DNA of 23,973 nt, taken from IMG/VR virus record IMGVR_UViG_3300045966_000092, positions 1 through 23,973 of that record; one strand, written 5' to 3'. Below the pieces are notes generated by a model. It was not told the origin of the DNA. It ran no database searches and worked only from the letters and a program-made list of their open reading frames with translations. Below are positions 494 through 23,928 of the stretch, one piece after another. Within the stretch, counting starts at the first letter, position 1. Every line of letters begins with the position of its first letter. The translations under genes and the position numbers were made by a program. Source of the DNA: a virus.

Positions 494-3400
494 GTGATAG
501 ACCGCCCTAACTCGGAGGTCCGCAACTCCCACTTATCGTCGAGATTCCGCAGAAATGTGAACGTGCTGTAAGTGTTGCCTGTAAGATCGAGTCCTACGTT
601 CGCTACCCCGATATATTCCGCATCCCACGACACCCGCCGGATACCGGCTGAATCCTGAATGAACTTAAGCGTCATCCGCTGCCCGGCGTTTATCACGTCC
701 GTGCTGTGGATCGCCGGCAGGACCGTTACGTCCTGATCGAGCACAACTTGATGGTTGAGCCCGTTCGCGAGGTCCGGTTCTACTTCGCCAGAAACGATCG
801 GCATCGTCGTGTAACCTTCGAGCGAGCTCGCCGATGTCGGATTCGCGATGCCGCGGATGTAGATTTCCCGGAATGGCGTTATCGCATCGACCGATTCATT
901 TAGCCCCCCGTCTACGGTAAACGCCATTACGAGAATCGTCTGCCCGCGGTAATTGTCTACGGGCAGTAGAACGTTGAACACTGCCGTCGGGTCCGCGTTT
1001 GACTGTGGCGTCGAGTCCGCTTGATCTGCAAGCCAGTTCGCCTCTTCGATGATGTATATCGATTCGTTGTTGACCGGAGCTTGATCCCAATCCCCGAGCA
1101 CTGTCACCGAGGTAGTCGTATTGCTCTCGATGCGCCGCACTTGCCCGCGCCCGGGCCCGGAGATGATGCGGACCAGGCATCCCGTCAAATCGTCGGTAAG
1201 CCCGAGCCCATCGTTCGACAGCGTATTTTCCCAGTTCGGGTCGCTGATCGTCCGCCCCACATAGGTAGGCTTTGAGCGCATCACGAGCACGCAGTTTGCA
1301 GTGATGCCGAGCGCCTCCGGATCGGGCGTCACCGTAAGGGTATCGGCTGTGTTGGCTGAAACCAGGAAGTTAGCGATTGGCAACTGATCCCATGTGTCGA
1401 GGTCCAGGATCGAGCACTTGTGCCCTGCCCATTGGTTGACAGGCCAGCCAGCCCCGGCAATCGTCATCGATCCCGTACCGACATCGGAAACTGCCGCGCC
1501 AAACGGCCCACCGTTGATGATGCGCTTGGCTTTGACTAACAGCCGGTCGAACTCGCCGTCGGGCACGCCCCATGCTGCCTCGTTAAAAGCCGTTACCGTG
1601 ATGCTCGTCGGCGTGCCGCTGGCAGTTGCTTGATAGGTGAGCGTATTCGGAGACTTGCCGCCGAACACGACGTAACCGACTGCCGCGCTGTCCCAAGAGA
1701 CAACAGGGATTGTCGCAGTATGGCTCGTGCCGGCAACCGTAATCGGAATACGGCAGAGGGTTGAATGCGGGCTCAGCTTGCCGTCGGTATCGAGCGCGCA
1801 CACCGCGAAGAAATACACCCATCCGCCGCCGACGATACTCCCGCCCGACGATGCCGTGAATCCCTGTTGTTGGATGAGCGGAGGCTTGATCGGAGAGAAC
1901 TCGTTGACCGGAACGACGCCGATTACATTGACCTTGTAGCGCGTGGTGCCATCGGCGAGTGTTTCGATCTGCGGCTGAATGCGAAATCCCCACTCAGTCG
2001 TACTGCGCATCGAGTCGCCATCCGGCGGCTGCTCCGCATACGGGCCCCACGGATACGCCGGCCGCGCTTCCCGGTCTCGCTTGTGCTGCGAATACCGCGG
2101 ATCAGGCGCAGGCTTGTAATTGTCCGTGTACCAGTCGTCGTCGTGGTGGTGTGCGACGATCTTGATCGTTTCGAAATTCTTACTTGGCTGCAGCTTTTGA
2201 ATGCGCAGCATTTGACTCGAGATGCCGTGCTGCGCATGGCTGATACGGATGATCTGCCCGATGCGCAGATGAATACCTTGAAACGTGGTGTCGAACTCGT
2301 ACCACTCCGTGCCGCGCACATCCTCGGCATTATTGCCGCGATGCGTCTCGGCGAGCAGCACCTGCGCCACTGCGTGCGACTGGCTGTAGCTGTTCGGCCC
2401 GTCGACCTGGATCGCTGACGATACTTCCTGACCGGCTCGCCATACATCCTCGGGCTCGACAACGTCCATGCTCGAGAGCGCGTAGTCGTATGCGGAATCC
2501 TGAAACTGGAAACGCACCCGGTTCGGCGAATCGGAGATCGCGCGCTTTGAAATACTCAGCGAGCCTTGAATTATGCACCCTTCATTGAAGTCGTACGCGA
2601 TATACCCACTCGCCCCAATCCCGCCGGAATCCTTCGAGGGAATTGAGCTCCCATTATTTGAGCCGTTGATTTGCGCCGGTTGCTGCTCTGCGAGCGTTCG
2701 CTTAATCAACAGTTGCAGCTTGCCGTCGGAAGAGTTCGGCTGAAAGATCGCGTTCATGCTACGCCGCAAGCCGAGGATGATATCGGCTGCGCTCCGGCGT
2801 TCGCGAATCACCAGCGTGCAAGTAAAACGCTTGCGCGTCCCGGTTGTTCCGTTGTGATCGGTGAAGTTGATCGTTTCGTCTGCGTAGTTCGCGGCATCGA
2901 CAAAGCTCGCCATATCGATGTCGCCATACTGAAAGCCGGACCATATCAGGATGTCAAGCAGCACCCAGACGGGATTATCAGAGTAGATTTTCGTGAAGGT
3001 CGACGGACCTGTGTAAACACGAATCTTCGGACCCTTGACAAGTACGCGCACGCGCGGGGTTGCCGCGGCATCTGCGACCTTGCGAGGTACTACGAACAAC
3101 AGCGCAGCGATATTGCCGTAAGGATCGCCCGTTCCGTTGTAGGGTGTATCGGTGTTCGGCGAGCCGTCCCGGTCGCCTTTGTTGATGATGTTGTAACGAA
3201 ACAGCGGATCCTGAACCTTATATGCACTGCCGTTGATATCGGTCGCCGGCGGGAGCTCGACATCGTTGACAACACACCGCAGGATGTCCGTAACTTCTCC
3301 GAGACAAACGGCGACTTCTCCGCGCGTCGAATTACCATCGCCGACGACATTCAAAATCGGCGGCGTAGTCCATCCCGTTCCGTACACCATCGGGTAGAAA

Positions 3401-7718: not shown

Positions 7719-8351
7719 TTACGAAAGGATTAACTGCTCGGGTTTAGGTTCAGACGCGACAAACGGTAAGACTTCTTGACGCAGCCGCTCGACCGCTATC
7801 GCGCAGTAACGTTCTTCAATCTCAATACCGATTGCGCGGCGGCCTAACTGTTTTGCTGCGACTAGTGTTGTGCCGCTGCCCATGAATGGATCAAGGATAG
7901 AATCTCCCGCAATCCGATTAAGCAGAGCCCGCATCAATCGCAACGGCTTGGGCGTTGGGTGTCCGTCGGTATCGGACAGGTTCGGCAACAAGATTACATC
8001 GTTAGCCAGCGACTTAAGACCGTAGACCAGAATGGGCTCCCAATTATTAAACCCGGATAACGCTCCATTACGTTGCGTCGAGGCGACGCGGACCCATGCC
8101 ATGATCCAATCCGGCCTCGGATAGTCATTCAATCCACGAACACCCGAGAACAGCACTACGGGCGCGAGCGCTCGAGCCATCGGCAACCAATCGTCAACCG
8201 GAACGATTCGCATATCCCAATCCGCTTTTTTCATCCCATACGGCGGGTCAGTCAGCACCAGATCTACGCGCGACAGATGCGGCAGCACATCGCGACAATC
8301 GGCACAGTAGATCGTGATGCCCGTCTCTTCGTAATAGGGCACTGGCAGCAT
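7719..8351 (-). CDS. Phage DNA methyltransferase, class beta (probably N6-adenine)
   Basis: This 210-aa protein is an S-adenosylmethionine-dependent DNA methyltransferase. DPPYGM at residues 35-40 is catalytic motif IV; HPTPKP at 131-136 matches motif X; DPFMGSGTT at 154-162 followed by GIEIEERYC is the SAM-binding motif I. Motif IV before motif I gives the class-beta order. DPPY rather than SPPY favours adenine N6 over cytosine N4 methylation. The region between about 45 and 120 would carry target recognition and is short. No restriction endonuclease gene is nearby, so it is probably an orphan enzyme protecting phage DNA from host restriction. It starts directly on the stop of the frameshifted chaperone (TAA then ATG, no gap) and ends 2 bases before the tape measure, an unusual place between two morphogenesis genes. 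Confidence 0.93.
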   Translation of the reverse strand: MLPVPYYEETGITIYCADCRDVLPHLSRVDLVLTDPPYGMKKADWDMRIVPVDDWLPMARALAPVVLFSGVRGLNDYPRPDWIMAWVRVASTQRNGALSGFNNWEPILVYGLKSLANDVILLPNLSDTDGHPTPKPLRLMRALLNRIAGDSILDPFMGSGTTLVAAKQLGRRAIGIEIEERYCAIAVERLRQEVLPFVASEPKPEQLILS

Positions 8352-9208: not shown

Positions 9209-10219
9209 TTATGTGAAGGCGAACTTCAGCTCATCCTTTGTCGTTCCGCCGGTCGCGTTAACCTGGCAGCCGTTGAACGCGATCGCTTTGCTGCGCTGCC
9301 CATCGTCCTGTTGCGCGGTTCCGAGCAGCACGTTCTTTAACGTAATGACGAGCCGTTGCCCGGCAGTAGTGCCAATCGTAAACTGGCAGTCGATCGGCAC
9401 CTTATCGATCGACTTCACTTTGAGCGCCGAGAAATTCGCATCGCCGACTTTATCGTAGATGTTGACATCGAATCTGATATCTCTCCGATCCTGTCCCGGC
9501 TGCCCGGCGTAATTGCCCGAGAAAATGACATCGGTCTGGAGATCCCGGTTCATGTTCGCAGTCAGGCGGAATGTTCGGATCTCGCCGACTGGCTGGCCAT
9601 CGAATATCGCTGTGCCGGCGAACACTGACAGCGGATTGCCGCTGGTAACGGGAGCCGCGGGCTCCGTAGGGAATGTACCCAGACCAGCTTTGGCGATCGA
9701 GTCCGCAGTAGGAAACTGATCGGTATCAAGCACCCATCGTGCCGGCCCCGAGAACTCCAGCGTTGCGAATGTGCCGCCGGCCGCAGCATCGAAAATCATT
9801 TGATTGCAGACCGCGCCATGCGCCACATACTGCGATGCAGTGCCCGGCTTCCAGTAGCTATAGAGCGACACCGACGGCTGCAGGTCGTCGAGCTCATAGG
9901 TCACCGATGTGGAGGCTACGATTGCCGCGGCTTTGCCGAATGCGGCCACGAGCAGCGGCCCGATATCCGGCTCGACGCCCGGAGATCCGTTAGGCGCAAG
10001 CGACATGCTTGTGCTCCATGTCGCGGTTCTCAGACCAGGAATCCCGACGGTCGCGCTGAGTGAGCCGTTCTTATCCGGCCGCTGTTCCATCGCTTGATCG
10101 GGAATCGGCCCGAGGCGGATCATTTTGAATGCGTCGCTATTGGTAGGCACAACCGCCGTACCGTAGGTGACCTCGGGCACGACGTAACCGAGCTGATTTG
10201 CTGAATTGACTGCAGGCAC
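9209..10219 (-). CDS. Major tail tube protein (gpV-like)
   Basis: This 336-aa, beta-rich protein precedes the chaperone, the usual position of the tail tube gene in siphoviruses. The opening (LGYVVPEVTYGTAVVPTNSD) is the phrase typical of phage tail tube proteins, and the body alternates strands with Gly/Ser/Thr-rich loops (GIPGLRTATWSTSMSLAPNG; IFDGQPVGEIRTFRLTANMN). It should polymerise into the hexameric-ring tube through which DNA passes. It is longer than lambda gpV (246 aa); the extra length is consistent with an added surface domain, which is an inference. The start is GTG at 10219, backed by a strong GAGGAG 8 bases upstream that overlaps the end of the preceding gene. High expression is expected. 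Confidence 0.88.
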   Translation of the reverse strand: MPAVNSANQLGYVVPEVTYGTAVVPTNSDAFKMIRLGPIPDQAMEQRPDKNGSLSATVGIPGLRTATWSTSMSLAPNGSPGVEPDIGPLLVAAFGKAAAIVASTSVTYELDDLQPSVSLYSYWKPGTASQYVAHGAVCNQMIFDAAAGGTFATLEFSGPARWVLDTDQFPTADSIAKAGLGTFPTEPAAPVTSGNPLSVFAGTAIFDGQPVGEIRTFRLTANMNRDLQTDVIFSGNYAGQPGQDRRDIRFDVNIYDKVGDANFSALKVKSIDKVPIDCQFTIGTTAGQRLVITLKNVLLGTAQQDDGQRSKAIAFNGCQVNATGGTTKDELKFAFT

Positions 10220-15705: not shown

Positions 15706-16731
15706 TTAGAGCACGGTCGCTCCGAGCGAGGCGTTAGGGCGGTAAGGCACCAACAATGGCGCCGATTGCATGAGTAGCCAGCGAATCGAGGGATCCTGAG
15801 TCACCCAGGATTTCGACCAGTAGGGAACAGCGTTCAGATTTTCGACGTCGCGGATCGCGCCGAACGCCTGCACGCCTTCCATGTCGCCCGCCATGATCAC
15901 CGTGCCGGTAGGCAGGTACTTGGTAAGAACGCCGACCGAATCGTGATAAGAGCCGCTGTAGACCCAGATGCGAAACGTGTCGATCTGGCCCATCAGCACA
16001 CCGCCGGTAATGATGGGTTGATCGGCGGCGAGCGACGGCTGCATAGTAGCGACCGCACGATAGAGATCGAGTTGCGCCTGCACGTTCGCGTTGTTACGGA
16101 ATGCAGTCCAGGCCGCGCCGTCCATCGTGACATCGACCGGCATCGAGCCGCTGTCGGCATAAACGAGATCCTGCCAGGTATGCAGATCGTTTAAGGGGTT
16201 CACCCCGGCTTGATCCCATTTGGAGGCACCCGCCAGTGTGACCGTGTGCGTGCCGAGCCGTCCGAAACTGACGCTCACCGTCGGGTACTTCATGCCGGTA
16301 ATTGTTACGGCGCCGGTTCTCAGAATGGTTGATGCCATCCACTCGAGCGTGTTGCGCAGCATGTTGACCTGATCTTCCATCTCCATGCGCAACACTGCGG
16401 CTTGGCGCTCCTCCGCTCCCATACTGCCGCCGATGCTTTCACCCGGAATTCGCTTGAATGCGGCATTGGGGTTCCACTGACGCTTATCTTTGATGTAGGC
16501 GGGCGTCACAACGTTGGTTGTCACGCCGAGACGTTCGACGATCTGACCTTCGACCAGCGGAGAGACGAAAGGCGACAGACGAAACTTATTCGTTCCGACA
16601 TCGAAAATGATTTGTTCGGTTGTGTGCCGCTCTTCGGCGGGAAAGTATTTGTCGACGAGAAATCGCGGCGCCGTTTTGAGGTCTTGCAAAACCCGGTTCA
16701 TGACCGAGGTTGTAAACATGTCTATTGGCAT
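15706..16731 (-). CDS. Major capsid protein (gpE family)
   Basis: This 341-aa protein is the same length as lambda gpE and has the features of the phage capsid E family: an N-terminal helix (FTTSVMNRVLQDLK), PRFLVDKYFPAEERHTTEQIIFDV, a PFVSPLVEGQ segment, VTPAYIKDKRQW, and a C-terminal end LVPYRPNASLGATVL. It builds the icosahedral head shell. The gene lies between the decoration gene and the FI-position gene, exactly as in lambda. A GGGAGAA stretch precedes the ATG at 16731 at a workable distance. The fold is HK97-like by family. The identification is among the firmest in the window. Confidence 0.95.
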   Translation of the reverse strand: MPIDMFTTSVMNRVLQDLKTAPRFLVDKYFPAEERHTTEQIIFDVGTNKFRLSPFVSPLVEGQIVERLGVTTNVVTPAYIKDKRQWNPNAAFKRIPGESIGGSMGAEERQAAVLRMEMEDQVNMLRNTLEWMASTILRTGAVTITGMKYPTVSVSFGRLGTHTVTLAGASKWDQAGVNPLNDLHTWQDLVYADSGSMPVDVTMDGAAWTAFRNNANVQAQLDLYRAVATMQPSLAADQPIITGGVLMGQIDTFRIWVYSGSYHDSVGVLTKYLPTGTVIMAGDMEGVQAFGAIRDVENLNAVPYWSKSWVTQDPSIRWLLMQSAPLLVPYRPNASLGATVL

Positions 16732-17208: not shown

Positions 17209-17607
17209 TTACCGGCGGCCCGCGCTCAGAACGAACTTGGCTTTGTACTCAGTCTGTTCTTCGGGAGTTTTGTCGCCGAGATTGTCGGCATCGGCGTCAG
17301 CCCCGACTTGCGGGTTTTTGACCTTTGCCATCTGCCGTGAGAACTCCGAGTCGACGGCGGACCGCTGCGTTTCCGCCGCTGCTTTCGGCGACTCCGACAA
17401 CAAACTGATGGCATCCTCCGGACTCATGTCCATCGACAGCGCCATCTTGCGGGCGAGTGCCTCGCGGCCGGCGGCCTCGGGCGAGTTGAGAATTGCCGCG
17501 ATGCGCTCGCGTTCGGCTTTGCGAGCCTCCGCTCTTGCCTGCGCATTTTCGGCTTTCAGTTGTTCGGTGACGGCGGCTTGTTGTTCCGCCGTGAAGTCGA
17601 TATCCAT
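17209..17607 (-). CDS. Internal-start scaffold protein (Nu3-like)
   Basis: An in-frame ATG at codon 302 of the protease gene would give a 132-aa protein that equals its C-terminal scaffold domain: MDIDFTAEQQ, a long charged helix, then a Pro/Asp-rich end. The site has AAGGAG at 17615-17620 with a 7-base spacer, as good a ribosome site as any in the window and hard to explain inside a coding region unless it is used. Lambda Nu3 is made in the same way within C and templates prohead assembly. Production of this short form is inferred from the sequence and the parallel. Confidence 0.82.
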   Translation of the reverse strand: MDIDFTAEQQAAVTEQLKAENAQARAEARKAERERIAAILNSPEAAGREALARKMALSMDMSPEDAISLLSESPKAAAETQRSAVDSEFSRQMAKVKNPQVGADADADNLGDKTPEEQTEYKAKFVLSAGRR

Positions 17608-18510
17608 CTTTCTGCTCCTTATTTGCGGATTCTTGGCGGCGGAAAGCGCGCCAAAACTGTATGTGCGCTCGCGAGGGAGAAGGGACGCGAGCACAGAATC
17701 TCTTGTGCCGACTCGATCGGCCATGCCGCAGGCGACCGCTTCAGCGCCGACTAAAACGCCGCCCTGTCCGAAATCGGATTGAACTTTCTCAAACGATACG
17801 CCGCGGTAGTCCGCAACTTTCTGGAGGAACACCGCTGCGGTGCTGTCGACAATCGCCTGAACCTGCGACTTGCCGTCGTCGGTTTCTACGTTGATGCGCT
17901 TCTTTGGACTGATCGAAGAAACGAACTCGTACGGTTCGGATTCTTTCTCTTTGCCGTTTTTGCGCGGGAGTGTGGCGACGACCCCGAGCGATCCGACCAG
18001 TGCGGTATCGGATACGGTGATACGCTTGGCGGCACTGCCGAGCCAATAAGCGGCGGATGCCATTGTGCCATCGCTAAATGCTCCGATGGGCTTTTTGCTT
18101 CCAGCATGTCTGATTGCCTCCGCAAGATCGCTGATGCCTTCCACTTGACCGCCTGGCGAATCGATGTTGAGCAGAATCGCGCGAACGGAAGAGTCATCGA
18201 TCGCAGCCTGCAAGTCGGCTTGCAAACCTGAAACGGTCGCGCCGCCCGATATCTCGGTGAACAGATTCGCGTAGCGGAAGATCGGCCCGATCGCGTTAAT
18301 CTGCGCAACTCCGTTGACCGGCTTCAGCGCCGCCGCGCGCGCCTCGGCATGCCGCTCCTGCGCCCTGATGACGGCGGCGAAGTCCGGATCGTGAACGCGC
18401 CGCGCCGCGTTGAGAATCAGCTCGAGCTCAGGCGCTTCGATCGTGCCGTCATCGCGGTACTGCGCGCGGATGGCCCAGGCTTGCTTGACTGCGTATTCAA
18501 ACGCTCGCAT
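17209..18510 (-). CDS. S49-family prohead protease / scaffold (gpC-like)
   Basis: This 433-aa protein matches lambda gpC (439 aa) in size, place and design. The N-terminal 290 residues are an SppA/S49 protease: LLNIDSPGGQVEGI (113-126), GTMASAAYW with the likely nucleophile Ser152, and SDTALVGSLGVVA. The general-base Lys is probably one of the pair at 203-204 (SPKKRINV). Residues from about 302 form a charged, Ala/Glu-rich coiled-coil scaffold (QARAEARKAERERIAAIL). The protease acts inside the prohead to remove scaffold. The ATG at 18510 has GGAG 6 bases upstream and overlaps the portal gene by 14 bases. The catalytic Ser is clear; the Lys assignment is tentative. Confidence 0.93.
   Translation of the reverse strand: MRAFEYAVKQAWAIRAQYRDDGTIEAPELELILNAARRVHDPDFAAVIRAQERHAEARAAALKPVNGVAQINAIGPIFRYANLFTEISGGATVSGLQADLQAAIDDSSVRAILLNIDSPGGQVEGISDLAEAIRHAGSKKPIGAFSDGTMASAAYWLGSAAKRITVSDTALVGSLGVVATLPRKNGKEKESEPYEFVSSISPKKRINVETDDGKSQVQAIVDSTAAVFLQKVADYRGVSFEKVQSDFGQGGVLVGAEAVACGMADRVGTRDSVLASLLPRERTYSFGALSAAKNPQIRSRKMDIDFTAEQQAAVTEQLKAENAQARAEARKAERERIAAILNSPEAAGREALARKMALSMDMSPEDAISLLSESPKAAAETQRSAVDSEFSRQMAKVKNPQVGADADADNLGDKTPEEQTEYKAKFVLSAGRR
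17615..17620 (-). promoter_or_regulatory. Internal Shine-Dalgarno for scaffold start
   Basis: AAGGAG on the minus strand within the protease gene, 7 bases before the in-frame ATG at 17607. It decides the start of the Nu3-like scaffold. Confidence 0.8.
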
Positions 18511-20155
18511 CTTGTACTCCGATGAAGGATCCGAATCTTTGCCACATACGCCGCCATACCGCCATCGGCACTTCGGGAGCCTCTTCCACGTCTGTCTCGG
18601 TATCGACCGGCTCTTTCTCGCCAGGTATATCTGTCTTCGGCGTCGCCGGCTTCAGATACTTGTCGAGCCCGAGCTCTTCGATGCGCGCGAACTCGGCGGC
18701 CCGCTGCGAGACAACTTCCTCCCAGTCGAGCCCTTGCTCGGCACACTCCTGCTCGAGCGTCGAGACGAGATTGCGCATCCGAACCTCGGAGGATTGTGCT
18801 TCTTTCAATGGATCGATCCAGCCGCGGCCCGGCCCGATCCACTTGCACTTCGAGTACGCATAGCGGAATTCATAGAACCTAGGCGCTTCGATGATTCCCT
18901 CGTTGATCGCCTCTTCCAGCCACAACTCGTATACCGGCGACGCCCAACAGGTCGACAGCCACGAACGGCGGCTCATGAAGAACCGCCAGGCCTCGAGAAG
19001 CGCCGCGCGAGCGCTCGAGTAGTTCGTCTTCGAGAAATCCCGCATGACGAGCTCGTACGGCAGATTCACGCCTGTGCCGATCTGCCGCGCGATGGCGTCA
19101 CAGAACGGCGCGAAGGCAGTAGCTGGACGCGCCGGCGTGAAGGGTGTCACGTGCTCGCCCGGCATCGTGTGGATCATGGAGCCGCCCTTGAGCTCCGCCA
19201 TGTATTCCTGCTTTTGCGCGAGCCATTTCTGAAACTGCTCGCCCTCGACGTCGCCGCCGAACATCGCCGCGACCTGCTCCGGCGGCAACGGAGTCTCGAC
19301 AATCGCCGCGATCATGGCGTTCACGATTGCGGCTTGCAGTTCGGTGCGCTGATACTTGTCGAGCATTCGGAATTTTTCCAAGATGCTCGAGAACAGCGGC
19401 TTGCCGCGCGTCTGACCCGGACGCTCTTTCTCGTACACGTGCAAGACTTGCTTGCGGCCCCACTCGGTTGCGGCGGGAATCCGCTCCCAGTCCTGCTCCG
19501 ACCAGTTATAGGTCAGATAGATATCGCCGGGATGCGTCCGTTTGATGTGGTAGGCGACCGGACGTCCGAACCCATCGATCTCGACACCGCCGCGGAGAGT
19601 CTTGCTGTCTTGCTTCGTCGTCGGATTGCTCAGACGGTCTGATTCGACCATCTGAAACTTTGTGGCGTACGGCGTGTGCGGGTCGACGTCCGGCAGCCAC
19701 AACGCTAACGCCAGCGATTCGCCGTGTGTCAGCATCGCGCCGACTACCTGGCGGGTCGCCTGATGGAAAGTTAGCTGCCCGGCTGCGTCGAACGCCGTCG
19801 TCTCGGAGTATTCGCGCCACAGCCCCTCAACGAACGTGCTCCATTCCTCGGCCCATTCTTTTGTTTTCCCGAGCAGCCGCCAGTCCGGAGTCGATGACAA
19901 CCGGAGTCCGTACCCGACGATGTTGTCTTTGAAAGTCTCAACGATGCCCGACGCGATGCCGTTGTTACGCGCGATGTCGCGCGCTCGCGAGCGCAGCGGC
20001 TCGAGCTCCGGGAGCAGATCGGCATCGGCCGAGCCGGGGTACGGGCGCCACAGCCTCGATTCGCGAGACTCCAGATCAGCGCCGACATGCTGCGCCGGCT
20101 GCAGCCCCGCCGGATACGTGTATCCGACATGGGCGAACGTCTGTACTTCGCTCAT
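18497..20155 (-). CDS. Portal protein (lambda gpB family)
   Basis: This 552-aa protein is a lambda-type portal (gpB is 533 aa): the dodecameric ring at one head vertex through which DNA is packed and to which the neck attaches. Signatures are the early segment RSRARDIARNNGIASGIVETFKDNIVG (key residues Arg-Asp, then N-x-x-A-x-G-I), VVGAMLTHGESLALALW, VESDRLSNP, GVEIDGFGRPVAYHI, and the clip/stem helices around YQRTELQAAIVNAMIAAIVE. The C-terminal part is acidic (DTETDVEEAPEVP). It lies between W and C as in lambda and overlaps the protease gene by 14 bases. AAGG precedes the ATG at 20155. Confidence 0.94.
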   Translation of the reverse strand: MSEVQTFAHVGYTYPAGLQPAQHVGADLESRESRLWRPYPGSADADLLPELEPLRSRARDIARNNGIASGIVETFKDNIVGYGLRLSSTPDWRLLGKTKEWAEEWSTFVEGLWREYSETTAFDAAGQLTFHQATRQVVGAMLTHGESLALALWLPDVDPHTPYATKFQMVESDRLSNPTTKQDSKTLRGGVEIDGFGRPVAYHIKRTHPGDIYLTYNWSEQDWERIPAATEWGRKQVLHVYEKERPGQTRGKPLFSSILEKFRMLDKYQRTELQAAIVNAMIAAIVETPLPPEQVAAMFGGDVEGEQFQKWLAQKQEYMAELKGGSMIHTMPGEHVTPFTPARPATAFAPFCDAIARQIGTGVNLPYELVMRDFSKTNYSSARAALLEAWRFFMSRRSWLSTCWASPVYELWLEEAINEGIIEAPRFYEFRYAYSKCKWIGPGRGWIDPLKEAQSSEVRMRNLVSTLEQECAEQGLDWEEVVSQRAAEFARIEELGLDKYLKPATPKTDIPGEKEPVDTETDVEEAPEVPMAVWRRMWQRFGSFIGVQDASV

Positions 20156-20226: not shown

Positions 20227-20457
20227 TTAAAACCAGAAACCTATCGGCGCCCGCCGCGGCCCTACCTGCCCGGTTGCCGATGCCGGCAGTTGACCGTAGA
20301 GAGAATCCCGAATCGCCTTTAACTCGCCGAGGTTTGCCTCGGCAAAACGCTGCGATTTGTCGCCAAAGACAATTTCTACAACAGCTTGCCCGGATGCAAT
20401 CCGTAGAATCGCCTGATCGATTTGCTCGATCTTGAGGAGAATTTCTTGCTGTGTCAC
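20227..20457 (-). CDS. Head-tail joining protein gpW-like
   Basis: This 76-aa protein matches lambda gpW (68 aa) in size and pattern: MTQQEILLKIEQIDQAILRIASGQ is read as an N-terminal helix, then VVEIVFGDKSQRF as a beta hairpin, NLGELKAIRDSLYGQL as the second helix, and a C-terminal RRAPIGFWF that recalls the aromatic end of gpW, which is essential in lambda. gpW plugs the filled head and prepares it for gpFII and tail joining. The start is GTG at 20457 with only a weak A-rich ribosome site (AAGAAAAAA). In lambda, W directly follows A; here it is separated from terL by the plus-strand cassette, so it may need read-through or the weak divergent promoter noted nearby. Confidence 0.9.
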   Translation of the reverse strand: MTQQEILLKIEQIDQAILRIASGQAVVEIVFGDKSQRFAEANLGELKAIRDSLYGQLPASATGQVGPRRAPIGFWF

Positions 20458-20475
20458 TTTTTTCTTACTTGCCTA

Positions 20476-20504
20476 TTGACAGATGCCTGGCATCTGTGTA
20501 TACT
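20476..20504 (+). promoter_or_regulatory. Sigma70 promoter P1 of plus-strand cassette
   Basis: TTGACA (20476-20481), a 17-base spacer, and TATACT (20499-20504): a perfect -35 and a 5-of-6 -10 at ideal spacing. The -10 ends 6 bases before the ATG at 20511, so transcription should begin at or within a base or two of the start codon, giving a leaderless mRNA. A 19-bp palindrome fills the spacer. Confidence 0.9.
20479..20497. promoter_or_regulatory. Operator O1: perfect 19-bp palindrome in P1
   Basis: ACAGATGCC-T-GGCATCTGT, 9-bp arms around a single T with no mismatch. It overlaps the end of the -35 and covers nearly all of the spacer, where a bound dimer would exclude RNA polymerase. The regulator is not coded in the window; it could be a phage repressor elsewhere or a host protein. 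Confidence 0.85.
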
Positions 20505-20526
20505 TTGAATATGAACAACGTTTCAA
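20497..20526 (-). promoter_or_regulatory. Possible weak divergent promoter toward W
   Basis: On the minus strand TTGAAA (20526-20521), an 18-base spacer and TATACA (20502-20497) point toward the W-like gene. The start would fall inside operator O1, so both directions could be repressed together. The -10 lacks the final T, so this is only a candidate. Confidence 0.25.
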
Positions 20527-20822
20527 CTTCCAAGACGAACCGCAAAGCGGTTCCTATGACTTCCTGCCCTGGCTGCTCTTGCACGAAGGGCTTTCCCGTC
20601 GAGCGTCAGGTTCGCGTTTTTACCTGCGCCGATTGCGGCGGACTCGTCGGAGACTGCTACCTCGGCGATTCCTACAGCCTCGTGCTGCCGTACTGGGCAG
20701 AAGGCGATGTTCCTGCCGAACGTCAGCGCTACTTCGATCTGACCTGCCTCGGCAGCAATGGTCTGACCCGCCGTCATGGTTGGTTCGATACCGAGACGCG
20801 GCGGATCGTGCAAGTCGGGTAA
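20511..20822 (+). CDS. Zinc-ribbon-like small protein, leaderless
   Basis: This 103-aa protein is not a recognised family. CPGC at residues 19-22 and CADCGG at 39-44 form the two Cys knuckles of a zinc ribbon, 16 residues apart; further Cys at 24, 49 and 79 are present. After the ribbon the chain has an aromatic beta segment (SYSLVLPYWAEGD) and an Arg-rich end (RQRYF, TRRHGWFDTETRR). Start choice: the ATG at 20511 lies 6 bases after the P1 -10 box; the frame is open further upstream to 20451 but those codons would precede transcription. The gene runs opposite to the late operon, and its last codons enter a hairpin. It may bind nucleic acid; that rests only on the ribbon. Confidence 0.8.
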   Translation: MNNVSTSKTNRKAVPMTSCPGCSCTKGFPVERQVRVFTCADCGGLVGDCYLGDSYSLVLPYWAEGDVPAERQRYFDLTCLGSNGLTRRHGWFDTETRRIVQVG

Positions 20823-20834
20823 CCCCCGACTTGC
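20810..20834 (+). terminator. Hairpin terminator or attenuator after first cassette gene
   Basis: GCAAGTCGGG (20810-20819), loop TAACC, and CCCGACTTGC (20825-20834) make a perfect 10-bp stem that includes the stop codon of the zinc-ribbon gene. Only TTTG follows, a poor U tract, so termination is probably partial, leaving read-through to the next two genes, which show no promoter of their own. Confidence 0.65.
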
Positions 20835-20867
20835 TTTGAAAATGCACAGAGAAACGGATCACCCCAC

Positions 20868-21155
20868 ATGGAAAAAACTTACACGAATTGGGAGAACCAA
20901 CAAAAAACTTGGGAGCCGGGCGTTACCGGTAAATGCATGTACTTTGTCATGGCAAACCGCAGGCTCGAAATCGGCGACGGCAGATTCTTTCACGATGCGT
21001 GCCTGTTTCGCGGTTCTATGTACGATGTTCAGCAAGTCTGCAAACTTCTCAAGGCCGCACGACCGGATTGGACTGATGCTATCCAGCCGGTAACCGCTCC
21101 TTGCATTTTTGACGCCGCCAAAGGCGAATACATCAACGTCGAGCGATGGATATGA
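20868..21155 (+). CDS. Hypothetical small protein, cassette gene 2
   Basis: This 95-aa protein is not recognised. It is rich in aromatics (YTNWENQQKTWEPG, CMYFVMANRR, RFFHDACLF, ending YINVERWI) with helix DVQQVCKLLKAARPDW, and looks like a compact folded domain rather than a chance frame. Four Cys are scattered without a metal-site spacing. The ATG at 20868 has no clear Shine-Dalgarno sequence. It lies 45 bases after the zinc-ribbon gene, beyond the hairpin, and overlaps the next gene. Expression should come from P1 by read-through. Confidence 0.75.
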   Translation: MEKTYTNWENQQKTWEPGVTGKCMYFVMANRRLEIGDGRFFHDACLFRGSMYDVQQVCKLLKAARPDWTDAIQPVTAPCIFDAAKGEYINVERWI

Positions 21156-21349
21156 AACGCTCAGAAATCACATGGACGCGAGAACTCCTCGCGTCCATCC
21201 CCGACGACATCTTTCTCTCTGAAGCACAGCGCCGCCGGGCGAAGAAACGCCAGACCTACACCGGCGGCCTGCTCTGGAAGAAACATAACCCGAACGTTCA
21301 GAACTGCCGCTGCGAGAAATGTACGGCAAAGCGACAGCAAGATTCATAA
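21146..21349 (+). CDS. Hypothetical small basic protein, cassette gene 3
   Basis: This 67-aa protein is not recognised. It is basic, with a helix ITWTRELLASIPDDIFLSEAQ broken by Pro, then RRRAKKRQTYTGG and a Cys group CRCEKC near the end that could bind metal with other ligands. Two starts are possible: ATG at 21146 (10-base overlap with the previous gene) or ATG at 21152 (ATGA overlap, 65 aa); the second is a classic coupling arrangement. The charge and Cys group are compatible with nucleic-acid binding, but no motif proves it. Confidence 0.7.
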   Translation: MDMKRSEITWTRELLASIPDDIFLSEAQRRRAKKRQTYTGGLLWKKHNPNVQNCRCEKCTAKRQQDS

Positions 21350-21369
21350 AACTTTTCTCAAAATACCTC

Positions 21370-21398
21370 TTGACAGATACCTGGCATCTGGCTATACT
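21370..21398 (+). promoter_or_regulatory. Sigma70 promoter P2, near copy of P1
   Basis: TTGACA (21370-21375), 17-base spacer, TATACT (21393-21398), again ending 6 bases before an ATG (21405). The stretch is almost identical to P1, so the pair is a duplication or strongly conserved design. It should yield a second leaderless mRNA. Confidence 0.9.
21373..21391. promoter_or_regulatory. Operator O2: 19-bp near-palindrome in P2
   Basis: ACAGATACC-T-GGCATCTGG, the same site as O1 with two changes from it; 7 of the 9 base pairs of the palindrome remain. Placement relative to -35 and -10 is identical to O1. The imperfect copy suggests the same regulator binds with lower affinity. Confidence 0.8.
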
Positions 21399-21404
21399 TG
21401 AACT

Positions 21405-21596
21405 ATGAGATTCGAAGATAGATTGAGAAAACGGATTGCACTGAGGCTCTCGCAAGGTTGGAGCTTGGAAAAGATCGGGGAGCGCACAGTGTGGTTTATG
21501 TTCGGGCATTTCTACTCGATCAAAAACGGGATGCTTATCGTGAAAATGATCAAAGGTGATGAATCTTTCGGACCTGCAATGGAGGTCGGATCATAG
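21405..21596 (+). CDS. Hypothetical 63-aa protein, leaderless, cassette gene 4
   Basis: This 63-aa protein is not recognised. The first half (RLRKRIALRLSQGWSLEKIG) looks like the opening helices of a helix-turn-helix domain, but the recognition helix expected next is replaced by an aromatic and hydrophobic stretch (VWFMFGHFYSIKNGMLIV). The ATG at 21405 is fixed by P2, whose -10 ends 6 bases upstream; there is no room for a ribosome site. Its stop lies 3 bases beyond the stop of the convergent terL gene, so the two genes share 6 bases tail to tail, and its transcript would run antisense into terL unless ended. It could be a small regulator or an inhibitor; this is unproved. Confidence 0.75.
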   Translation: MRFEDRLRKRIALRLSQGWSLEKIGERTVWFMFGHFYSIKNGMLIVKMIKGDESFGPAMEVGS

Positions 21597-23477
21597 ATAC
21601 GGATCACTCGAATACCGCGGCTTCAACAGCGGCCCGCTCAACACCGTAGCGGCGGGCGCTTGCGGAGCCGCGGCCGCAACCGCGACGGCAATCTCTTTCT
21701 TCCGCGGCGCCCGGTTCTTCGCGGCGTCGCACATGTCCAGCATGCGCTCGACTTCGCGATTCAGGTTAAACGCCATCGTCGAGTAGAGACTGTGAAGCGC
21801 CGCGTACGCGTACACGCGAATGTCGAGCGCTTCGTTGCGGGCGCCCTCCGGTTTCCTCCACTGAAAATATCTGTAGCCGTTTTTGTAGCGCGCGTATTTC
21901 TGCTCGGCCGTCAACTGCTCGAAGTAGTCTAGCGTTCGGTCGATTGGAAAATGGCAGTATCCCGCGCCTGGCTGCTCGAGTTTCAGCCGTTCATACGTCG
22001 TATCCTTCGCGGTGTCGACGCCGATGATCCAGACCGGAGTCTTGTTGAGCCCAATCGAGACTTTCTTCGGCCAGATCATGCGGCTTCCCTCACGGCCCTT
22101 GACCGCGTAGATCTTCCTGGCCGTCCGCGAACGCGTGAAACGGTACACCGCGCTCGTGCAGTCGGAGGAGTCGATGCAAGTCGCCTTGATCGGCAGTTCA
22201 ATGCCGGCCTCATTCTCGAAACGCTGCTTCAAGAGTTCGTCGAGCTCCGCCCAGACCTCCGGCTTTTCCGGATTGCCCGGCAACACCAGATGCCGAATGC
22301 TCCAACTCTCCTCGTCGCGGCCCCATCCGACGATCTCAACCTCGAGACGATTCCCTTGCACGTCGACGCCGGCAGTCAAGATCGCTACCTGCTCAGGCAC
22401 TGCCGGCCCGTAGGCCTCTATACGTACAAGAAGCGCCTGAGCGTCCATCTTCGCTTCGTGTCGTTCCTCGAAACACTCCGCGAGCGCCGTATTGACGAAC
22501 GTTCTGAGCGTTAAAGGCGTTTTTGCCGCCTTTACGTACTCTTTCGCCATGTCGCCCCATGACGGACCCTGCAAAGTGTACTGTTTCGGCAGCCAAAAAC
22601 CCGGTATATCGGACTTCGGATTCTCCGGAATCCAGCGTCCCTGGCTCACCATCCAGGCTTTTCGGTAGTGCGGAATGAGCTTTTGGCAGTGCTGGCAGCG
22701 GAATTGAGCCTCTTCCGGAGCCCCTTCCGGCCACTCGATACGGTGCCAAAACAGCACCTGGAAGTGCCCGCACTGCGGACAAGGCACCTGAAAACGCCTC
22801 TGATCGCTCTCCCGATACCACAAATCGATGTTGTTTTCCGGGAAAGTCGGGCTCGAAGCAATGGCGATCTTGCGGTTTAGCTGGAAAGTGTCGGTTCGCC
22901 GGATCGCCAGACTGATCGGATTCCCTTCTTTCCCGGCTGACGGCTCGTAACGGTCTACTTCGTCGAGCGCCAGGTATCGAATCGGCCGCATCGCCAGCCC
23001 TGAGGCGCTCAGTGCTCCCGTAAACGTCACATGCCCGCCCGTAAAGCTCTTGTGAAGCGTGGTATCGTCCATTCCGCTGCGAACACGGTCGTTTATAACA
23101 GGTGTATCCCGTATCATGGTCGAAACACGGTCTTTACTCAGCGCTTTGGCGTCCAGTTCCCGCGGTTCCACGAAAAGCGCCGGCCCAGGGTCCATATGGA
23201 TGATATATCCAAGAAAACAGAGCAGTAGTTCTGTTTTCATGATCTGAGAAGCGCACTTGTACACCGCAATCTGGCAAGGATGCGAGGGTGAGAGCACGTC
23301 CAGGGGCTCTTTTTGGTACGGATAGGTGCGCCATTTGCCCCGTAAAGCGCTCGCCTCCCGGCTCAAAACCCTGTATTCGTCGGCCCATTCCGAGACGCTC
23401 AGGTCTGGTGGTGGTTGCGCGATCGCGCAAAATGCCTCGAAAAGCCCGTCTAAATCACGCGACGTCTCTGGATCCAT
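21591..23477 (-). CDS. Terminase large subunit (gpA family)
   Basis: This 628-aa protein is a lambda-type packaging motor and nuclease (gpA is 641 aa). The ATPase half shows an atypical Walker A around residues 74-84 (KCASQIMKTEL) and Walker B ending in LALDEVDRYE with Asp172-Glu173. A zinc-finger-like CPQC with CQHC follows in the middle. The nuclease half begins at LTAGVDVQGNRLEVEIVGWG, whose first Asp is a likely metal ligand, and continues through CIDSSDCTSAVYRF and VKGREGSRMIW. The end is an Ala-rich linker and a short tail that should contact the portal. The ATG at 23477 overlaps terS by 23 bases. The stop overlaps the convergent cassette gene. Confidence 0.95.
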   Translation of the reverse strand: MDPETSRDLDGLFEAFCAIAQPPPDLSVSEWADEYRVLSREASALRGKWRTYPYQKEPLDVLSPSHPCQIAVYKCASQIMKTELLLCFLGYIIHMDPGPALFVEPRELDAKALSKDRVSTMIRDTPVINDRVRSGMDDTTLHKSFTGGHVTFTGALSASGLAMRPIRYLALDEVDRYEPSAGKEGNPISLAIRRTDTFQLNRKIAIASSPTFPENNIDLWYRESDQRRFQVPCPQCGHFQVLFWHRIEWPEGAPEEAQFRCQHCQKLIPHYRKAWMVSQGRWIPENPKSDIPGFWLPKQYTLQGPSWGDMAKEYVKAAKTPLTLRTFVNTALAECFEERHEAKMDAQALLVRIEAYGPAVPEQVAILTAGVDVQGNRLEVEIVGWGRDEESWSIRHLVLPGNPEKPEVWAELDELLKQRFENEAGIELPIKATCIDSSDCTSAVYRFTRSRTARKIYAVKGREGSRMIWPKKVSIGLNKTPVWIIGVDTAKDTTYERLKLEQPGAGYCHFPIDRTLDYFEQLTAEQKYARYKNGYRYFQWRKPEGARNEALDIRVYAYAALHSLYSTMAFNLNREVERMLDMCDAAKNRAPRKKEIAVAVAAAAPQAPAATVLSGPLLKPRYSSDPYL

Positions 23478-23904
23478 GCAGTGTTTCGGGCAGATTCTTG
23501 AGCACCAGGCGCATTTCTTTCAGCAAATAATCCCTTACCATCCGCGGATCGGTCAGCGCCGCGCACTCGCCGGCCACTCTGTCGGGAAATCCGAGCAGGT
23601 GATCCCTCAACGTCTGCGCTATCGACGCCCACAACAGCATCGCCGGCTGCTTCTCGATCAACTCCCCGCGATCACGCCTCGCCGCAGTCTGATGCTTGTC
23701 CGCGAGTGCGATCTCTTTCCGCAAACTGGCGTCATACAGCGACTCCGCCGTCTTCTGCATCGCCGCGCCGTCCAATTGCACCCGCGGACGGCCCATTTTC
23801 TTTACATGCCGACTGGCGGAAGCTTCAGAAACACCCGCATTTTCAGCTATTTCAGCTACACTTTGCCCTGCATGCTCAGCTAAAATCTTACGCGATCGTG
23901 ACAT
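23455..23904 (-). CDS. Terminase small subunit
   Basis: This 149-aa protein is placed just before the large terminase gene, as lambda Nu1 is before A (Nu1 is 181 aa). Residues 12-37 form a helix-turn-helix (SVAEIAENAGVSEASASRHV), the DNA-recognition element by which small subunits select the packaging site. After a basic linker (KKMGRPRVQ) comes a helical domain (LYDASLRKEIALADKHQTA; LIEKQPAMLLWASIAQTLRD) for oligomerisation, and a C-terminal helix (MVRDYLLKEMRLVLKNL) that would contact the large subunit. The ATG at 23904 has no good Shine-Dalgarno sequence and sits within a short palindrome. No earlier in-frame start is evident. Confidence 0.85.
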   Translation of the reverse strand: MSRSRKILAEHAGQSVAEIAENAGVSEASASRHVKKMGRPRVQLDGAAMQKTAESLYDASLRKEIALADKHQTAARRDRGELIEKQPAMLLWASIAQTLRDHLLGFPDRVAGECAALTDPRMVRDYLLKEMRLVLKNLPETLHGSRDVA

Positions 23905-23910
23905 CTGTCA
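23899..23910. promoter_or_regulatory. Short palindrome over the terS start codon
   Basis: TGACA-TC-TGTCA covers the ATG of terS. On the minus strand TTGACAGATG is the same ten bases with which P1 begins, but no good -10 follows at the right distance (AGATTT at 17). It may be an operator half-site related to O1/O2 or coincidence. Confidence 0.3.
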
Positions 23911-23928
23911 ACATATTACTTAGCGTAC

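Follow-up and report, generated by a model that had tools for sequence, protein, structure and literature searches.

A cassette of four small genes, lying antisense within the head operon of this virus, carries two diverged copies of a single consensus sigma-70 promoter module, each running up to a start codon and each with a dyad in its spacer. Both promoters are predicted to make leaderless mRNAs, and the dyad is a probable operator. We analysed the complete virus record of 23,973 bases (the window), whose minus strand encodes a lambda-type head operon. The two promoters, P1 (20476-20504) and P2 (21370-21398), are on the plus strand, and the window contains no other consensus sigma-70 promoter.

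P1 consists of TTGACA at 20476-20481 and TATACT at 20499-20504, and P2 of the same hexamers at 21370-21375 and 21393-21398. In both, the spacer is 17 nt and the -10 box ends six bases before an ATG (TTGAAT before the ATG at 20511; TGAACT before the ATG at 21405). These coordinates and sequences, given in an earlier note on this DNA, were all right on re-checking. Using a repeat finder, we found that P1 and P2 form one 43-bp direct repeat (20472-20514 and 21366-21408, plus strand) that is 84% identical and retains both hexamers, the 6-nt distance, and 14 of the 17 spacer bases. Beyond the 43 bp, the flanks are unrelated, as the note had observed. Dinucleotide shuffling of the window, repeated 2000 times, gave 0.005 consensus promoters per window and 0.0005 with an NTG 4-8 nt away, versus two observed in each case. 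P1 and P2 are thus diverged copies of one module, and their shared register is inherited rather than the product of two independent events. The note had argued that two such promoters in the same register amount to design. The geometry is indeed rare, but the common origin makes this argument weaker than stated, and the statistical case depends on the promoter/ATG geometry and the P1 dyad.

The spacing of both modules points to transcription beginning at the ATG itself. Given the 17-nt spacer and the 6-nt discriminator, +1 is predicted to be the A of the ATG, preceded by a T, in both copies. A Shine-Dalgarno sequence is impossible before either ATG, as the upstream sequence is the promoter itself. 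Late genes of the minus strand that start at 10219, 15666, 16731, and 17170 have AGGAG/GGGAG-type sites. The P1 and P2 transcripts are very probably leaderless.

We also examined promoter-to-ATG distances in other phages. A scan of viral contigs for TTGACA-17-TATACT-6-ATG yielded at least 120 stretches. We fetched 80 phage loci, left out the sites that had selected them, and measured the distance from the 99 other consensus promoters to any ATG that opens an ORF of 30 codons or more. Fourteen of these distances were 6 nt, three were 7 nt, and none was 0-5 or 8 nt, although these loci were picked by the pattern itself and the spike is not a frequency across all phages. Twelve ATGs were still at 6 nt once similar sites were removed. 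The same 99 promoters gave a second, broad mode at ~20-37 nt, matching promoters with a normal leader. In whole records, promoters with the leaderless geometry numbered seven in G402, three each in G401 and G403, and two in G405, and the reversed control pattern had no matches. Thus, the 6-nt geometry is selected in phages, where multi-copy sets occur. This result strengthens the case for leaderless mRNAs and at the same time makes them less novel. Together with the spacing and the exclusion of a Shine-Dalgarno sequence, the spike gives good support from sequence to the note's proposal that transcription starts on the start codon.

Several of these phages carry promoter sets of their own. G402 (IMGVR_UViG_3300027770_000072, locus L334) is a 55-kb phage contig with seven leaderless consensus promoters and several that have a leader; many of these promoters have the spacer AAATGGTTTTGGGT in common. 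Locus L013 has a paired promoter, TTGACAGGGCCCGGG..TCTGGATATA (2672-2698 and 3133-3159, minus strand); it lies downstream of a gene whose product has a sigma-70 region 2 domain, and one copy is 6 nt from an ATG. Locus L316 contains three leaderless promoter-ATG modules (reverse strand, 3590, 4027, and 4810) that share the first codons ATGGAAACGATCA. L013, L297, L334, and L335 were considered as relatives of the present locus and rejected; they are alike in geometry and not in sequence, and we regard them as parallels only.

The P1 dyad is a perfect 19-bp palindrome, ACAGATGCCTGGCATCTGT (20479-20497), in which all nine pairs match around a central base (9+1+9; ACAGATGCC-T-GGCATCTGT). It fills the spacer and reaches three bases back into the -35 box. 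Its counterpart in P2, ACAGATACCTGGCATCTGG (21373-21391; ACAGATACC-T-GGCATCTGG), forms seven of the nine pairs and has intact symmetric ends, CAGAT...ATCTG. The palindrome that the note had described in both spacers is therefore present, at different strengths. When we shuffled the spacers, the P1 dyad was significant (P ~8e-5); P2 alone was not (0.057). Since shuffles of the window predict 0.28 perfect 9+1+9 palindromes anywhere in 24 kb, such a palindrome is not rare by itself; the rarity of the P1 palindrome lies in its place within the spacer. The sequence of ordinary sigma-70 spacers is not conserved and is free to vary. No further copies with three or fewer mismatches were found elsewhere in the window or in the shuffles. 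A third TTGACAGAT adjoins the TerS start codon (23903-23911, minus strand; 0.14 expected per window); it is non-palindromic and has no -10 at 17 nt.

The position of the P1 dyad is the classic place for steric repression, and the dyad is probably an operator, with the P2 dyad a probable weaker one. Across leaderless phage promoters in general, we saw no enrichment of spacer dyads, and an operator therefore does not follow from a leaderless start. MerR-type promoters have a dyad within a spacer of 19-20 nt, and the 17-nt spacers of P1 and P2 rule out this type. We recognised no regulator anywhere in the 24-kb window and no HTH in the cassette proteins. The note had called both promoters repressible. 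This is plausible from the dyad at the -35 and spacer and from the 14 of 17 spacer bases kept, but no regulator or homologue was found to add to it.

The cassette interrupts a conserved gene order. On the minus strand, the head operon encodes TerS (23455-23904), a gpA-type TerL (21591-23477), a gpW-like adaptor (20227-20457), a lambda-family portal (18497-20155), an S49 protease (17209-18510), and the major head protein (15706-16731). A DNA methyltransferase gene (N6_N4_Mtase; 7719-8351, minus strand) lies among the tail genes, and the window contains no Rfam families or tRNAs. The cassette is antisense to the operon, between terL and gpW/portal. In AcaML1, terL is followed directly by one small gene and then by portal, and in most of 80 TerL relatives, the gap between terL and portal is ~400-950 nt, versus 1439 here. 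Extra genes thus lie between genes that are adjacent in relatives, and they have their own promoter, so that the four-ORF cassette resembles a moron. The promoters do lie inside a head gene cluster, as the note had said, but their genes are an inserted opposite-strand cassette rather than head genes.

The cassette spans ~1.1 kb and contains four plus-strand ORFs of 103, 95, 67, and 63 aa. Measured against the codon usage of the phage itself, all four register as coding (z 1.7-3.0), which agrees with genuine genes behind the two start codons. ORF1 (20511-20822; coding z 3.0), which follows P1 and is predicted to be leaderless, encodes a probable zinc ribbon (CPGC...CADC; a sub-threshold Pfam match). 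ORF2 (20868-21155) is an orphan that overlaps ORF3 (21146-21349, with its start at 21146 or 21152). ORF4 (21405-21596), an orphan that follows P2 and is also predicted to be leaderless, has the weakest coding signal (z 1.7), and its stop codon abuts the convergent terL stop codon. Searches of phages, plasmids (for ORF1), Pfam, PHROGs, NCBIfam, and PADLOC revealed no relatives of the cassette proteins except for a 27-aa, 59% match of ORF3 near one end of another viral contig (L126). Structure models of ORF1 and ORF4, made without an alignment, were of low confidence; that of ORF4 (pLDDT 67) begins with two helices and matched nothing.

Two hairpins within the cassette are the longest perfect short-loop inverted repeats of the window. 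One has a 10-bp stem that spans the ORF1 stop codon (20810-20834, plus strand; dG -19.3, z -5.1); it has a weak U tract and may act as a terminator or as the stem at the 3' end of the P1 transcript. The other, the longer of the two, has an 11-bp stem and lies after the ORF2 stop codon, within ORF3 (21172-21198; z about -5). No convincing terminator was found directly behind ORF4. A 16-bp near repeat, CA[GT]AGA[AT]ACGGATCAC, occurs before ORF2 (20847-20862) and at the ORF4/terL junction (21592-21607), and may be a trace of cassette assembly.

The note had suggested a search of related genomes for the 19-bp site and for a regulator gene beside its own copy of it. We detected the site and the genes in only two other contigs, both nearly identical to this DNA (100% over 7,259 bp in one and 99.98% over 5,580 bp in the other). 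One contig (L006) has a single difference from the window, C/G at 20597, which is silent in ORF1. A pattern combining promoter and dyad, run against all viral contigs, found the exact site in near-identical contigs only; against 84,980 genomes it gave 68 matches, one in each genome and none in this context, which is about the order expected by chance for 17 fixed bases. The palindrome alone is present in 55 stretches of viral contigs, and this virus alone has two; the other stretches that we examined lie mostly within open frames, many in one gene family. The loci of the 80 TerL relatives (~4-11 kb each; 674 kb scanned with comparators) contain no similar promoter, and P1 ranks first in dyad strength among these loci and comparators. 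We found no divergent relative of the cassette and, within the window, no regulator beside a copy of the site. A weak hint led us to try Acidobacteriota as the host; terL relatives there are just 31-45% identical, and ORF1 is absent from 396 Acidobacteriota genomes.

On balance, we lean toward a model in which a moron-like cassette carries a duplicated leaderless promoter module controlled by a dimeric regulator at the dyad. Host sigma-70 RNA polymerase would bind TTGACA/TATACT and start on the A of the ATG, with P1 giving a leaderless mRNA for ORF1, perhaps for ORF1-ORF3, and P2 a leaderless mRNA for ORF4. The regulator would be encoded outside the fragment and would most likely be the phage's own repressor or autoregulator, with a host source possible. 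Bound to the 19-bp dyad between -35 and -10, it would block polymerase, with tighter repression at P1 than at P2, so that the cassette could be turned on and off separately from the late head operon. Because no convincing terminator lies directly behind ORF4, P2 transcripts passing this gene would run antisense into terL.

The dyad could instead have no regulatory role. The promoters would then be leaderless and lack an operator, the P1 palindrome would be a chance event or by-product, and P2 would resemble it through copying of the module. Copied promoter modules with conserved spacers and no such palindromes do exist, in G402, the L013 pair, and the L316 set, and spacer dyads are unenriched among leaderless phage promoters as a group. 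In P2, moreover, two of the nine pairs are broken without compensation. This reading nonetheless has to accommodate a perfect 9+1+9 dyad sited exactly where a repressor site is expected, at the P value given above, and the symmetric CAGAT...ATCTG ends still present in P2. We consider it possible though doubtful. A role for the dyad in RNA seems very improbable. On the minus strand, the P1 dyad forms an 8-bp hairpin (dG -11.9, z -2.7) that lies 20-40 nt before the gpW start and downstream of terL, where it might affect processing or translation of the late mRNA, with the promoter match being secondary; the change in P2 keeps a G-U pair on this strand. Such a role leaves the two consensus promoters and their 6-nt ATG spacing unexplained (0.0005 expected), and the stem lacks a U tract and is weak compared to the two other hairpins of the cassette.

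A further alternative keeps the operator and places its regulator within the cassette, which would be an anti-defence unit whose own autoregulator binds the dyad, similar to acr-aca operons. Small orphan genes in the head region, with their own transcription unit and a palindrome in the core promoter, fit this description (PMC9410906), as do the two helices that open the ORF4 model. However, no cassette protein has an HTH, Aca-like, or PADLOC match, and the ORF4 model is of low confidence and gave no match. We judge this alternative unlikely, less so than the RNA hairpin.

If a dimeric regulator does act at the dyad, a bolder extension can be drawn, which we offer tentatively. The immunity repressor, or an equivalent, might use the 19-bp site as a dispersed regulon, keeping leaderless late-region morons off in the lysogen and on at infection, and arrays of leaderless consensus promoters might be a general, little-described phage strategy for expressing small genes. 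The recurrence of the 6-nt spacing between -10 and ATG in other phages, often in multiple copies, suggests that small phage genes may be expressed without a leader more often than the handful of textbook examples (lambda cI, PY54) would imply. The cassette provides a compact example of phage accessory genes that lie outside the immunity region and are served by predicted leaderless promoters with a putative operator.

Among the closest parallels to P1 and P2 is the acuR-acuI-dddL promoter of Rhodobacter sphaeroides, which is controlled by the TetR-family regulator AcuR. Its RNA starts exactly at the AUG, with no Shine-Dalgarno sequence, an inverted repeat overlaps the promoter, and operator mutations cause constitutive expression (PMC3017554); here, the corresponding start and operator are predicted. 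The acuR-acuI-dddL promoter is chromosomal and single copy, its operator has 8-bp arms with a 6-bp gap, and the gene for its regulator opens the operon (PMC3017554). In contrast, the present module belongs to a phage and occurs in two copies, and no regulator was found in the window. Among phages, lambda cI, transcribed from PRM, is a textbook leaderless mRNA. The cI and cro mRNAs of phage PY54 are both leaderless (PMC4488713), as is that of PaaR2, a cI-like regulator of a cryptic prophage (PMC8630535). In all of these, as predicted for P1 and P2, an operator-linked phage promoter makes an RNA that starts at the AUG. However, those promoters serve repressor genes in the immunity region, whereas the genes here encode small orphan proteins in the head region.

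Other systems resemble the cassette in its arrangement. Phage morons are inserted between conserved late genes, on the opposite strand and with their own promoter. The cassette shares these features and has a hairpin after ORF1; unlike morons, it has four ORFs, two promoters, predicted leaderless starts, and terminators that are not clear-cut. Similar to acr-aca operons, in which Aca proteins bind inverted repeats within the acr core promoters and repress them (PMC9410906), the cassette has accessory genes with their own promoter and an inverted repeat within it. Since no Aca-like gene was recognised among ORF1-ORF4, we do not claim membership in this class, whose definition does not include a leaderless start. 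The candidate site also recalls the stoperators of cluster A mycobacteriophages, which are repressor sites outside the immunity region; stoperators are asymmetric, numerous, and stop elongation (PMC6550527, PMC9283540), whereas the site here is symmetric and lies within two promoters. The earlier note had found a paired, operator-controlled leaderless set in a head gene cluster unfamiliar. The parts have precedents, as an operator-controlled leaderless promoter (AcuR) and two leaderless genes in one phage (PY54) were already known, and other phages carry leaderless promoters in several copies. The novelty lies in how these parts are combined, with a duplicated leaderless promoter that bears a dyad serving an opposite-strand cassette between terL and gpW.
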